The position numbers were made by a program, and so were the translations under genes. From NCBI GenBank assembly GCA_002835545.1, contig PIZK01000001.1:124001-188000 (forward strand): a DNA stretch of 64,000 nt, in the 5' to 3' direction. This document shows positions 49,627-53,813 of the stretch, piece after piece (within the stretch, counting starts at the first letter, position 1; every line of letters begins with the position of its first letter). Source of the DNA: Alteromonadales bacterium alter-6D02. Its GTDB lineage: Bacteria; Pseudomonadota; Gammaproteobacteria; Enterobacterales; Psychrobiaceae. Under the pieces are notes generated by a model, which did no database searches, was not told where the DNA came from, and saw only the letters and a list, made by a program, of their open reading frames with translations.

Positions 49627-49651
49627 TTCGTTTTAGTCGAGTAGTTCACAT

Positions 49652-49688
49652 AAAAACGGGATGGTGATTAATTACCATCCCGTTTTTT
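49652..49688 (+). terminator. Rho-independent terminator of cvpA-purF
   Basis: ACGGGATGGT and ACCATCCCGT with loop GATTAATT, extended by A and T pairs and followed by T residues. Confidence 0.94.
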
Positions 49689-49765
49689 ATGTGCTCAACT
49701 TTGTTGTGAGTGTGGTGAATCGTCGCCCTGACATACCCCCACTTGTCATTCGACATGCGTCCACT

Positions 49766-49972
49766 CGTCATCCTGACATGCGTCAACTCGTCATCCTGAC
49801 ATGCTGTTAGTCAGGATCTCCTAAAGCCTGTTAATCAGTGAACTAAGACCACTCAGCTTTTGCGCACATAAAAAAATCACCCCACCTTGCACAACAACGC
49901 GCCGTAAACCCATCCGTGGGCGCTCGAAAAAACATCCCTGTTTTTAATGGTTGTTTTAGCAAAGTGTGATGA
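49766..49972. repeat. Direct repeat, unit 1 (about 205 bp)
   Basis: Nearly identical to 50008-50212: it opens with the REP-like palindrome and continues with CCTGTTAATCAGTGAACTAA, CACCCCACCTTGCACAACAA, CCCATCC-TGGG and GGTTGTTTTAGCAAAGTGTG blocks. About a dozen scattered substitutions separate the copies. No coding frame spans it. Confidence 0.9.
49793..49817. repeat. REP-like palindrome, copy 4
   Basis: ATCCTGAC, 9-base loop ATGCTGTTA, GTCAGGAT. Compared with copy 2 both arms have changed together (C-G to T-A pairs), keeping the stem. Confidence 0.75.
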
Positions 49973-50007
49973 TTTACCGGGGAGTATGTCAGTATGTTCC
50001 TCTATGC

Positions 50008-50212
50008 CGTCCTGACATGCGCTAACTCGTCATCCTGACATGCTGTTAGTCAGGATCTTCTGATGCCTGTTAATCAGTGAACTAAGACCACTCAGCTTTT
50101 GTGCACATAAAAAAATCACCCCACCTTGCACAACAACACGCCGTGAACCCATCCATGGGGGCTCGAAAAAACATCCCTGTTTTATATGGTTGTTTTAGCA
50201 AAGTGTGATGAG
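50008..50212. repeat. Direct repeat, unit 2 (about 205 bp)
   Basis: Second copy of the unit at 49766, in the same orientation, 35 bases after the first. It ends in GTTTTAGCAAAGTGTGATGA like the first. The pair could be a non-autonomous element or duplicated non-coding RNA locus. Confidence 0.9.
50032..50056. repeat. REP-like palindrome, copy 5
   Basis: Identical to copy 4 within repeat unit 2. Truncated half-palindromes (TCCTGACATGCG) stand directly upstream in both units. Confidence 0.75.
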
Positions 50213-50358
50213 TTATTGGGCATGGTTTGAAGCAATTCAATTAACTTTTTTTGATATAAATATTTCACAATAGTGAGACGCAATAACTCCACTTTGACAC
50301 CCTGACTACTCTAATATTGTTGCTCAGTTGTCTTGCCGTTTAACCTACTGTAGTATCG

Positions 50359-50391
50359 ATAAAAAGATTATGGGTATCTTTTTATTTTTTT
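50359..50391 (+). terminator. Orphan rho-independent terminator
   Basis: ATAAAAAGAT and ATCTTTTTAT form a perfect 10-bp stem around TATGGGT, followed by six T. The nearest plus-strand gene, purF, already has its own terminator 670 bases earlier, so this may end an unannotated non-coding transcript. Confidence 0.65.
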
Positions 50392-50673
50392 GCATGGACG
50401 AACGCTTCACTGGAGTAACCTCCGTTTAAAATAAAACTATAAGTAGCTGTATTTATTGGATATTTATTAAAGAGTCAATATCGGAAAGGTAATTTAATAA
50501 ATTGTTGTCACACTAGTTTTCGAAAGCAAGAGGTTACTAAAAACTTTTCTAAAGGATATAAATAATCGCGAAAAAGCTCAGGGATATAGCGAAAATTTGA
50601 AAGACCTCCTATTTCATAGTTTGAATTAATTCGCACTAGAAAGATTTCGATTTAAATATGTAAAATGAAAGTG
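50392..50673. other. AT-rich spacer 3' of the islet operon
   Basis: No gene, repeat or clear hairpin is visible between the orphan terminator and the last gene of the islet operon. No T-tailed terminator for that operon could be found on the minus strand. Confidence 0.5.
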
Positions 50674-51135
50674 CTAAATCTCACAAATAGTTCCATCTTC
50701 TATTTTCAAACTTAACTCTTCAAAACCGTCAGGCAATTCAAACGCCAAAGCACCTTTTTTAGCTATTTTGGGCTTTAGGTCTGTGTGATAGAGTTTATTC
50801 AAGCCAGAAGTTTTTGCGTAGTCAGAATAACCGCACAAATGTGAGTCCTCGACAATATCAAATTCAAACTCTTCTTCATCAACTAATTTAACTAAGTCTT
50901 TTATTTGGTCAGCTGAAATTTTCTTTTTATTTAAGTTAACAACGGTAATATCCATAATCCAGATATTTGCACCTATATCAATATCTTCAACCTCATTAAC
51001 CCCATCAATATCTTCCCAATTTAGTTTATATAAGTTCTCTACTTTAATTCTTGCGTATTTTGCATCACCATACGGGTCTTCTGCATTAACAGAAAAAAAG
51101 TCACCAGACTCAACTAGCTCTCGGATATCAATCAT
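50674..51135 (-). CDS. Islet protein C, unknown function
   Basis: 153 acidic residues with no signal peptide or membrane helix. The pattern of short strands (WIMDITVVNLNKKKIS, FEFDIVEDSHLC, ALAFELPDGFEELSLKI) looks like an all-beta, immunoglobulin-like fold of the kind seen in DUF4352-type proteins, but here it would be cytoplasmic. Its ATG overlaps the stop of the ATPase gene (ATGA), so the two are translationally coupled and probably work together. I do not recognise the family. Confidence 0.75.
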   Translation of the reverse strand: MIDIRELVESGDFFSVNAEDPYGDAKYARIKVENLYKLNWEDIDGVNEVEDIDIGANIWIMDITVVNLNKKKISADQIKDLVKLVDEEEFEFDIVEDSHLCGYSDYAKTSGLNKLYHTDLKPKIAKKGALAFELPDGFEELSLKIEDGTICEI

Positions 51136-53096
51136 AATATTTCCTTAATAGATTTAACTTTACTGTTGTAAGTATCACATACCCATGAGGTAACTTTAAC
51201 TCTTTTCTCAAAAGACAGGTTTTGGATTGGGTTTTGAATGAGCCTTACATCAAATTCGCTTTCTGTTTCGATCACTAACCCAATAAAATAGCTATCTCCT
51301 AAATCGCTAGCCACAGCAAACTCATTATTGGTAATTTCAAAGTCACTCTGCAAGCTTTTCACGGACTTAACTTCTATGTGCAGTATTTTACCTGATTTGA
51401 GCTGCACTTTAAGGTCATATCCAACATGGGCTTTGCTTACGTCAGTTACTTTAAAAACAGAATCAAATTGAGCCAAATACTCTTTTAAATTCAACTCAGC
51501 AGATCTCCATTTTTTTACATTCACAGATTTTAAAGTAGGTCCATTAGCACTCTTAGGCTCGGCTCTCTTTTGAAAGTCAAACTTAGAGGTATTAGTTTTA
51601 CTTAATATCCCCAAAGATTTGTATAAGCTTTTTATATCACTTTCAAACTCAAACTGCTTAATTAAATCCAATGTCGATTGTGGAAGTTCTATTTCGCTCT
51701 GAATCATTGATTTAGCGGTAACTAACTCGCCATCTATCGGTATAATTTTTAAGTTGGACAGTTCACGTAATTGTACTTTCTCAAGGGTAAATCTGTTTTT
51801 CTTGGCATAGTTGCCAACTACACTCATAACTCCGTAAAGGCTTAAACTTTCAAAATTACAATCTAAAAGCACCTCAGATGAAGTAAAGGTTTTAACACCA
51901 ATCCAATTACAGAAATTACTTAGTTCAGGAAATGTTTCTATCACTTCTTGTGAAATAAGTGTTTTCTTTGTTTTTAAATTATAATAATCCGTATAACTCA
52001 GCCATTCAGGACAAGTTCTAATGTTATCAATCTGGCTGGAAGAGCCACTAAAATACAATCGATGATCCAATGCATCAATAAGAGTATCTCTTAACTTTTT
52101 TCTATTTTCAAAACCATTACAATCAAATACCCTAAATATACCGATATGAGAACGATTAATAATGGCTGATTTAATAGAAAAAGCTAATATTCTACAGCAC
52201 GAAATAAATGAATCTTCACTTCTCTTATCAAAGTCAACAAACTTTCTTGAAGGGTCAGTACTGAAGTCACCATTAAACTTTAACGCAGCCCCGGGAGATT
52301 CCCTAGTAGGTAGGAATGCATGTATCAAGGCCTCATCTTTGCGAGCCGCCTCAATTTCGTATCCATTCATCTTCATTGCAATCTTACATGAACTTTCATG
52401 TTTTTGGTCATCTAACACTGTCCAATGCTCTTGAGCACCTTCTGATATAACTGTTTTTTTTGAATCAGAAGATTTAATATGAATCTTTTTGTCAAAAGAA
52501 TCAGTTATTAGTGTTATGCTATTGATATTTTTAAGAAATATACAAGAGCTACTTTCTAATTTACTTATTTCTTCATTCACAACCCGAAAGTTAGTATCTT
52601 TGAAAATAAATCTTGTTTTAAAGTCCAAAAATTCAGGCGGAAACGAATAACATTGAGTAACTCGATGAGGCACTCTAATCAATGGTACATCTTCCATTGT
52701 ATCGATAGCTTTTTTTGTCAATTCTCGAGAAAATAAGAAAGCATAACCACCTGAATAGACTTCAATCTCTTGACATATACCTACTGTGGACTTAAATCCT
52801 ATGCCACGGTAGCCTATTGTACCGCCGCCTCTTTGCTTTGTTGAAGAGCCACTCCTGCATAGAGCTAATATATCATTCTCATCAAAATCTCTTCCATTAT
52901 TTGCAACAATTATATCCTTACCAGATTGAACAGCTATAAAATTAGTAGCCCCACAATCATCAGCATTTTGAATTAGTTCTATTAACGCTCTAGTACGGTA
53001 GCTTTCAGAAATGTATAGCTCCACTTTAGCTAAATCTACGAATAACGAAGGCGCAGATAAAGCTTCATTTATAAAACTATCAATTAACAGTTCCAT
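51132..53096 (-). CDS. Sacsin-like GHKL ATPase with C-terminal DUF3883 domain
   Basis: About 654 residues from ATG 53096, which has an AGAGG site 8-9 bases upstream; an in-frame TTG at 53117 is less likely. The Hsp90-like ATPase domain shows the N-box ELIQNADDCGA (Asn 44), NNGRDF at 66-71 and the glycine loop GTIGYRGIGFKS near 91-102. The middle is unassigned. The C-terminus (about 525-640) is a DUF3883 (NO VEIN-like) domain with a PD-(D/E)xK outline: GYDLKVQLKSGK, then HIEVKS. Proteins with this pair are common in phage-defence islands. Full length, middle gene of a three-gene operon. Confidence 0.85.
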   Translation of the reverse strand: MELLIDSFINEALSAPSLFVDLAKVELYISESYRTRALIELIQNADDCGATNFIAVQSGKDIIVANNGRDFDENDILALCRSGSSTKQRGGGTIGYRGIGFKSTVGICQEIEVYSGGYAFLFSRELTKKAIDTMEDVPLIRVPHRVTQCYSFPPEFLDFKTRFIFKDTNFRVVNEEISKLESSSCIFLKNINSITLITDSFDKKIHIKSSDSKKTVISEGAQEHWTVLDDQKHESSCKIAMKMNGYEIEAARKDEALIHAFLPTRESPGAALKFNGDFSTDPSRKFVDFDKRSEDSFISCCRILAFSIKSAIINRSHIGIFRVFDCNGFENRKKLRDTLIDALDHRLYFSGSSSQIDNIRTCPEWLSYTDYYNLKTKKTLISQEVIETFPELSNFCNWIGVKTFTSSEVLLDCNFESLSLYGVMSVVGNYAKKNRFTLEKVQLRELSNLKIIPIDGELVTAKSMIQSEIELPQSTLDLIKQFEFESDIKSLYKSLGILSKTNTSKFDFQKRAEPKSANGPTLKSVNVKKWRSAELNLKEYLAQFDSVFKVTDVSKAHVGYDLKVQLKSGKILHIEVKSVKSLQSDFEITNNEFAVASDLGDSYFIGLVIETESEFDVRLIQNPIQNLSFEKRVKVTSWVCDTYNSKVKSIKEIL

Positions 53097-53123
53097 CTTA
53101 AAATGCCTCTTTAGCAAAAGTAT

Positions 53124-53417
53124 TTACAGAACATGAAGAACACACTGCCCATGTTCAAAAAGGCTCAACTCAGAAAAGTCATGAGCTTCAGCAAGAGTTT
53201 GACTATCTGGAACTCTATTTCTTTCGCCTACGCGAGCTCTGCTTTTAATTTCATAAACTATATTCACATTTTTAGATTCAAGCTTGGAGCAAACTATTTC
53301 AATCAAGTCTTCTGCTAACATACTGCCGAGAGAGTTTATTTGCCTTTCTTCAAAATCAGACATACTTAAACTTAAAGAGCCACTTTTACCTTTATATACA
53401 AATTTTGCAATGTTCAT
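53124..53417 (-). CDS. Islet protein A, small unknown protein
   Basis: 97 residues, first gene of the operon. It begins MNIAKFVYKGKSGSLSLSMSDFEE, has a central helix (INSLGSMLAEDLIEIVCSKLES) and then a strand with a basic loop (YEIKSRARVGERNRVPDSQTL). No known family is recognised. It precedes the GHKL gene by 27 bases. A GGGAAG ribosome site supports the ATG. It could be a sensor, antitoxin-like or regulatory partner, but nothing in the sequence decides this. Confidence 0.7.
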   Translation of the reverse strand: MNIAKFVYKGKSGSLSLSMSDFEERQINSLGSMLAEDLIEIVCSKLESKNVNIVYEIKSRARVGERNRVPDSQTLAEAHDFSELSLFEHGQCVLHVL

Positions 53418-53756
53418 GAATAACTTCCCTATTAAATAAAGTTATTATCTATTGTAAAAAGTTTTTTGTATATACACTGTTTTGCTACTTGCTACTTGCT
53501 ACTAATTGGTACATATCTTTGACTAATCGAGAGCTATTTTGACAAACGATGTATTTTGGATATAGCATGCTTTTACCACCCTCTGTTTTAGTCTTTGTTT
53601 GGCAGTGTGTTCGGTATTGTGAATGACTCACTTATAAAATTGCTACAAATAAATACTAAATAAGTTACAGTCACAGATCAAATAATTTGATAAAGTCAAA
53701 AAATAACATTTCTGTTACAACGACTTATGACTAATAAAACTTAACTTCGAACTGAT
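53418..53756. promoter_or_regulatory. Islet operon promoter region and spacer to putP
   Basis: AT-rich, no gene. It includes three consecutive heptamers GCTACTT/GCTACTT/GCTACTA at 53484-53504, about 70 bases upstream of the first islet gene and so near its expected promoter. No clear operator was identified. Confidence 0.45.
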
Positions 53757-53785
53757 AAATAAAAGCCCTGAACAATTCAGGGCTT
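53757..53785 (-). terminator. Rho-independent terminator of putP
   Basis: On the minus strand AAGCCCTGAA and TTCAGGGCTT form a 10-bp stem with a 3-base loop, followed by TTTTATTT, 30 bases after the putP stop. Confidence 0.9.
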
Positions 53786-53813
53786 CTTAGTGTTTGTGTG
53801 TTGGAAAGTGACA

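Follow-up and report, generated by a model that had tools for sequence, protein, structure and literature searches.

The window, a 64-kb stretch of contig PIZK01000001.1 of Alteromonadales bacterium alter-6D02, carries between the convergent genes purF and putP a small islet with three tightly packed minus-strand genes encoding proteins of 97, 654 and 153 amino acids (aa; Table 1). Open reading frame (ORF) calls reproduced exactly the coordinates, sizes and spacing given for these genes in the original prediction, which had suggested an anti-phage system: the first gene and the 654-aa gene, referred to below as the core gene, are separated by 27 nt (53097-53123), and the core gene overlaps the 153-aa gene by the 4 nt ATGA (51132-51135). 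A Shine-Dalgarno-like stretch is located 6-9 nt upstream of every start codon (3/3 genes), and an alternative TTG start 21 nt further upstream would extend the core protein to 661 aa. Coding bias in the given frame, expressed as z relative to shuffled sequences, is 5.4 for both the core gene and the 153-aa gene. The 97-aa gene is the least certain of the three, because its z is only 2.3 and one antisense frame scores higher.

The islet is bounded by the ends of purF (49626) and putP (53814), both named by reading their translations, and has a guanine-plus-cytosine (GC) content of 29-38%, compared to mostly 39-47% outside. Next to the three genes lie two tandem copies of a 211-nt repeat (49771-49981 and 50010-50220); since partial copies of this repeat occur at 8 other genomic sites, it is probably a decayed repetitive element. 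The proposed AT-rich islet beside repeats was thus recovered, and no tRNA genes were found in the window. In addition, the islet is accessory. All 9 genomes of the genus, including that of the strain itself, contain putP, and we took the putP region from the five congeners whose putP is most similar (74-78% identity). In the four in which the site is readable, purF and putP are only 229, 162, 947 and 257 bp apart, compared to 4187 bp here, and neither the three genes nor the islet sequence were found between them; in the fifth, which was excluded from this count, a different gene comes after putP at the contig end, rendering the site unreadable. These spacings support the variable spot that had been postulated. 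The core is absent from all 8 congeners. The 947-bp gap of congener G007 (L098, 1857-2604) contains two different small ORFs of 71 and 179 aa, so the spot may accept cargo repeatedly.

On the basis of its sequence and structural model, the core protein is predicted to be an intact GHKL ATPase (sacsin/MORC-like) with a C-terminal Hjc-like PD-(D/E)xK nuclease domain. The combination of a sacsin-like ATPase and DUF3883 proposed earlier stood up to profile searches, in which the protein was assigned to the sacsin N-terminal ATPase family NF047352 of NCBIfam (E=2e-21; 76.1 bits, cutoff 50) and to the Pfam family NOV_C (DUF3883, PF13020; residues 547-614; 44.2 bits, gathering cutoff 22.1). Two further Pfam families, HATPase_c_3 and SACS, matched with 26.3 bits (cutoff 25) and 32.7 bits (marginally under the cutoff of 32.8), respectively. 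In an AlphaFold2 model with a mean predicted local distance difference test score (pLDDT) of 81, the best single fold match is sacsin SR1 (Z=15.2, root mean square deviation 3.2 Å, 173 residues); like sacsin, Hsp90 and MORC proteins match roughly over residues 14-400, and residues 528-654 match A. fulgidus Hjc (2wcw; Z=13.3, root mean square deviation 2.4 Å over 113 residues). An alignment of 20 members of the core family showed that W530, E534, D561, E575 and K577 are invariant in all 20, that N44, D46 and D47 are at least 90% conserved, and that G95-G100 are conserved. Conservation of the GYRG motif is given by construction, as this motif was used to find the members, whereas the nuclease residues played no part in the search. 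A second motif, STDPSR, occurs in nearly all members, with F278, T280, D281, P282, S283 and R284 being invariant. The fold matches together with the invariant signature residues lead us to regard the core as a putative E-D-ExK nuclease placed behind a GHKL-S5 ATPase.

Table 1. Positions of genes and sequence features in the window
Feature	Position	Strand	Description
97-aa gene	53124-53417	-	ORF and ribosome-binding-site-like sequence; orphan, position resembling that of a small regulator
Core gene	51132-53096	-	654 aa; predicted GHKL ATPase, S5-like/linker region and C-terminal PD-(D/E)xK nuclease
153-aa gene	50674-51135	-	Predicted DUF4352-like beta-sandwich partner
Predicted GHKL ATPase region, core residues 36-143	52668-52991	-	HATPase_c_3, family conservation, sacsin SR1 fold; N-box N44/D46/D47; GYRGIGFKST 95-104
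Predicted NOV_C/Hjc-like nuclease domain, core residues 528-654	51135-51515	-	NOV_C, Hjc fold; putative active site E534, D561, E575-x-K577
Shine-Dalgarno-like AGGGA, 97-aa gene	53426-53430	-	Sequence
Shine-Dalgarno-like AAGAGG, core gene	53106-53111	-	Sequence
Shine-Dalgarno-like AAGGA, 153-aa gene	51142-51146	-	Sequence
Accessory islet between convergent purF and putP	49627-53813	.	4187 bp
Two direct copies of intergenic repeat	49771-50220	+	211 nt each, 93% identical, beside operon

Sequence comparison suggests that the core gene and the beta-sandwich gene downstream of it are a conserved pair, because a core gene found in a Methanoregula metagenome-assembled genome (MAG) has a homologous domain directly downstream. 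This archaeal core is followed after 25 bp by a gene for a 360-aa protein, with the same gene order and strand as in the window, and the C-terminal domain of this protein and the 153-aa protein align over 126 residues with 28% identity and 50.8 bits, compared to at most 24.6 bits in 2000 shuffles. The additional N-terminal part of the Methanoregula partner, about 216 residues (L122, 10883-11530), is without any family match. Apart from this Methanoregula match, relatives of the 153-aa protein were found neither in plasmids, phages and IMG/VR nor in 368 other genomes of the class. The structural model of the 153-aa protein, which is only fair (pLDDT 68), matches YjhA (3cfu) with Z=10.0, and its score against DUF4352 (PF11611; 18.5 bits) is below the gathering score of 25.9; the protein thus looks like a DUF4352 beta-sandwich in structure, while its sequence score does not support membership of the family. 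It also matches phrog_806 (E=1.5e-6), is acidic (pI 4.3), and shows no signal peptide by eye.

For the 97-aa protein, we found no relatives in plasmids, phages, IMG/VR (searched with a peptide pattern), 97 other relatives, or the loci of the core family (best E 0.73). Its matches in the PDB comprise about 20 residues of WD-repeat designs and were taken as chance. Originally, neither small protein had been assigned to a recognized family; no relative was found for the 97-aa protein, but the 153-aa protein has one in Methanoregula and a DUF4352-like predicted fold. A conserved triad had to be rejected because no 97-aa relative was found and most core relatives have a different, helical partner; the unit that is conserved consists of core and beta-sandwich, in one archaeal relative.

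Full-length relatives of the core are scarce. Single-sequence and two-row searches revealed no other in 148 relatives (own genome included), 369 genomes of the class and 398 genomes of the phylum, where all matches were partial and concerned long GHKL proteins or other DUF3883 proteins. At the level of the order, the core family was detected in 1 of 394 genomes, the sole other match being a 1700-aa TmtA; phages, and IMG/VR searched by protein or two-row alignment, yielded no match. A plasmid of Planococcus lenghuensis encodes a full-length relative with 32% identity. The motif GYRG[I/V]GFKST, derived from the Planococcus and window cores and scanned over 84,980 species genomes, was found in 23 genome stretches, and in IMG/VR it was found in one viral contig; all of these encode the core family. 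This count is a lower bound, as a second member in G877 does not contain the exact pattern. Compiled from the 23 genome records together with the viral contig and the plasmid, the core family is rare and occurs in distant bacteria and an archaeon, with hosts including Bacillota, Bacteroidota, a Chloroflexota MAG, Synechococcus and the Methanoregula MAG. The nearest relative of the window core is that of Methanoregula (34%), and both group together in a tree with support of 99/96; both branches are long, a situation in which, according to a warning of the program, the grouping may be spurious, but the shared partner is independent support for this grouping. Complete members mostly comprise 661-715 aa; some are cut by the end of the stretch, and one (L120) reads 784 aa with an uncertain start. 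One family core is broken by stops (G867); where stop codons interrupt the core gene at L110 (3023-5685), the downstream partner gene is still open. On the IMG/VR contig (L051, 6910-9732), core and helical partner are located at the contig end after ORFs resembling, by eye, a phage lysis region, an arrangement as in prophage-borne defence.

Partners vary by clade and are encoded up- or downstream of the core. Outside the window, the family has 26 loci. In 15 of them, a protein of about 200-210 aa judged to be helical from its sequence, alone or inside a larger protein, is encoded at most 40 bp from the core, and in 3 more within 2 kb; the remaining 8 showed no match at E<=1e-4. At L115, one of these 8, a neighbour of 684 aa matches weakly (E=1.2e-6; the set searched was small and unfiltered), and a clade of three loci (L127, L128, L130) has a common partner of about 800 aa instead. 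Neither type is present in the window, and the helical partner of Planococcus shows no homology to the small window proteins. Ten partner-type neighbours, the helical family included, had no Pfam match better than 0.001, and one helical partner tested singly had no PADLOC match at 1e-10; among 140 ORFs near family cores, no single PADLOC model was matched by more than 2. Partner ORFs are split at L112 and L114. At L109 (3850-5261), one core gene is preceded by a pair of neighbouring, paralogous genes for helical partners, as if the partner had been duplicated to broaden sensing.

The genomic neighbourhoods of the family members lean strongly towards defence. At E<=1e-10, 140 ORFs near family cores matched 247 PADLOC models, compared to 60 models matched by 140 control ORFs; we regard this as a strong lean and not as a tested enrichment, because these figures are counts of models, not of proteins. 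From the 197 ORFs that lay within 8 kb and encoded 120 aa or more, the neighbours were reduced to 140 within 5.5 kb, omitting the near-duplicate loci L111 and L113 as well as L130, L027 and L051; the controls came from elsewhere in the same genomes and were drawn from 234 ORFs minus those of L135. Among the matches listed near cores are Avs2, BrxL, PglZ, a type I restriction enzyme, a type II methyltransferase, PifA, ThsB and QatA, to which Pfam matches to Mrr_cat, YhcG nuclease and a Schlafen-type helicase can be added. For the controls, the matches listed consist mostly of reverse transcriptases, one Cas1 model and scattered candidates. Family neighbourhoods seem to be rich in defence genes of BREX, Avs2, restriction-modification (R-M) and Thoeris-like type.

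Defence is the best reading of the function of the islet, suggested by this family context rather than by the locus in the window. We consider it likely that the islet is a horizontally acquired, compact defence system against mobile elements in which an ATP-gated nuclease acts with a partner; it would best be read as a Tiamat-like or paraMORC-like system whose nuclease has interchangeable partners. We infer for this system ATP-driven dimerisation, nuclease activity and its substrate, sensing by the partner, and phage defence as such. GHKL ATPases in general close as dimers on ATP, which is why we assume that ATP binding would lead the N-terminal GHKL domains of the core to dimerise. Closure of the ATPase dimer might then position or license the Hjc-like nuclease, a step suggested by VcSduA (see below) and by the conserved signature, and the nuclease would cut nucleic acid, most likely DNA. 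Because its place is conserved and clades differ in the partner they use, the partner might have the deciding role: the 153-aa protein, made together with the core via the ATGA overlap, would sense the invader or restrain the nuclease until triggered. The 97-aa protein could be an optional accessory or regulator.

Several points weigh against defence. The look of an anti-phage system originally ascribed to the locus is supported by its accessory islet, its intact ATPase-nuclease and its relatives among defence genes, but no other recognized defence gene was shown beside the copy in the window. Moreover, the 60 models matched by control ORFs demonstrate that PADLOC matches occur elsewhere in these genomes too, the pair of core and beta-sandwich is known from two genomes only, and the 97-aa gene has neither a relative nor a strong coding bias. 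The core model is of very low confidence at residues 84-95, which belong to the ATP lid, and at residues 500-528.

Three other explanations are conceivable. An abortive infection or toxin-antitoxin-like unit, in which the 153-aa or 97-aa protein inhibits a toxic nuclease and is released on infection or plasmid loss, would fit two small co-transcribed partners flanking one nuclease, the acidic nature of the 153-aa protein and the close linkage of partner and core across the family. We regard it as unlikely, since partners differ between clades and may be up- or downstream, and since VcSduA, the nearest tested analogue, restricts phage with the host staying alive (PMC12137116); being compatible with defence, such a unit would also be a sub-mechanism and no clean alternative. 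The fold likeness to Hsp90, to a DNA-repair N-terminal domain (3h4l) and to Hjc might point to a MutL/Hsp90-like repair or chaperone machine that carries an Hjc-like nuclease and works on DNA or proteins of the cell itself, an explanation made still less probable by the extremely patchy distribution in the order and among the congeners and by the defence genes near its relatives. It is very improbable that the islet is inert or decaying cargo fixed by chance after loss of function, for although it stands alone beside degenerate repeats without a close relative, and some members elsewhere are visibly broken (the G867 core, the L112 and L114 partners), its three frames are open, with ribosome-binding-site-like sequences and the signature residues of both enzymes intact.

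Returning to the proposed defence system, we compared it with known systems. In its predicted layout, which joins a GHKL ATPase to a C-terminal PD-(D/E)xK domain with the E-D-ExK signature, the core resembles VcSduA and paraMORC3. In VcSduA, both activities are needed against phage (PMC12137116), and paraMORC3 is described as having an E-D-ExK nuclease behind its GHKL-S5 part (PMC2292703). For paraMORC3, the comparison covers layout and the fit of E534-D561-E575xK577, and the best single fold match is sacsin. The window core differs in that its nuclease is of NOV_C/DUF3883 type, the Shedu signature domain DUF4263 not being matched in a Pfam search up to E=1, in its sacsin-type rather than MORC-type ATPase sequence, and in the presence of a partner gene. 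DUF3883 was termed a novel restriction endonuclease domain, which in R-M operons occurs as a fusion with an SNF2 helicase (PMC3710099); the core has the same C-terminal domain, joined to a GHKL ATPase and not to a helicase. The 153-aa protein has the predicted beta-sandwich fold of DUF4352/YjhA-type proteins, from which it differs by its score below the Pfam cutoff and by being encoded together with an ATPase-nuclease.

A further close parallel is Tiamat (TmtA), which has a sacsin-like GHKL ATPase at its N-terminus as well. In the PADLOC check of the proposed defence function, residues 4-285 of the core matched TmtA model PDLC03964 (E=8e-48), so the N-terminal half was recognized, but an end-to-end match was not obtained, the best stretch covering model positions 16-328 of 1538. 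The true TmtA of the order (1700 aa) matches PDLC03972 over 3-1136 of 1302. In other family members, the C-terminal, nuclease-like end is matched by TmtA models too, by PDLC03969 (about 1392-1490 of 1563) in two and by PDLC03967 (907-992 of 1063) in one. TmtA models in PADLOC-DB 2.0.0 have 1063-1782 positions, whereas the family proteins, about 660-715 aa, are without the long middle. Tiamat is a single-gene system, in contrast to the window family with its partner gene. With both ends matched in this way and the long middle missing, the family looks in sequence like a half-size form of Tiamat that kept both ends. A wider and more tentative idea, which we hold possible rather than probable, is an unnamed immune family of several phyla, in which a core of about 680 aa would be gated by ATP and combined with exchangeable partners specific to each clade (helical, about 210 aa; about 800 aa; or DUF4352-like), sensing having moved to swappable genes. 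The exchange of partners suggests that one effector is served by modular sensing, an arrangement that has been proposed for Shedu (PMC12137116). A literature search of limited reach retrieved no description of the two-gene family or its partner scheme. Tiamat-type proteins are very large; with a core of half that size and its partner encoded separately, the control of a nuclease by a sacsin/Hsp90-like ATPase would become accessible to biochemistry. GHKL ATPase-nuclease defence is already known from Tiamat and GHKL-Shedu; the partner scheme, of which we found no description, would add a partner-based family that defence annotation at present recognizes only through partial matches to TmtA.
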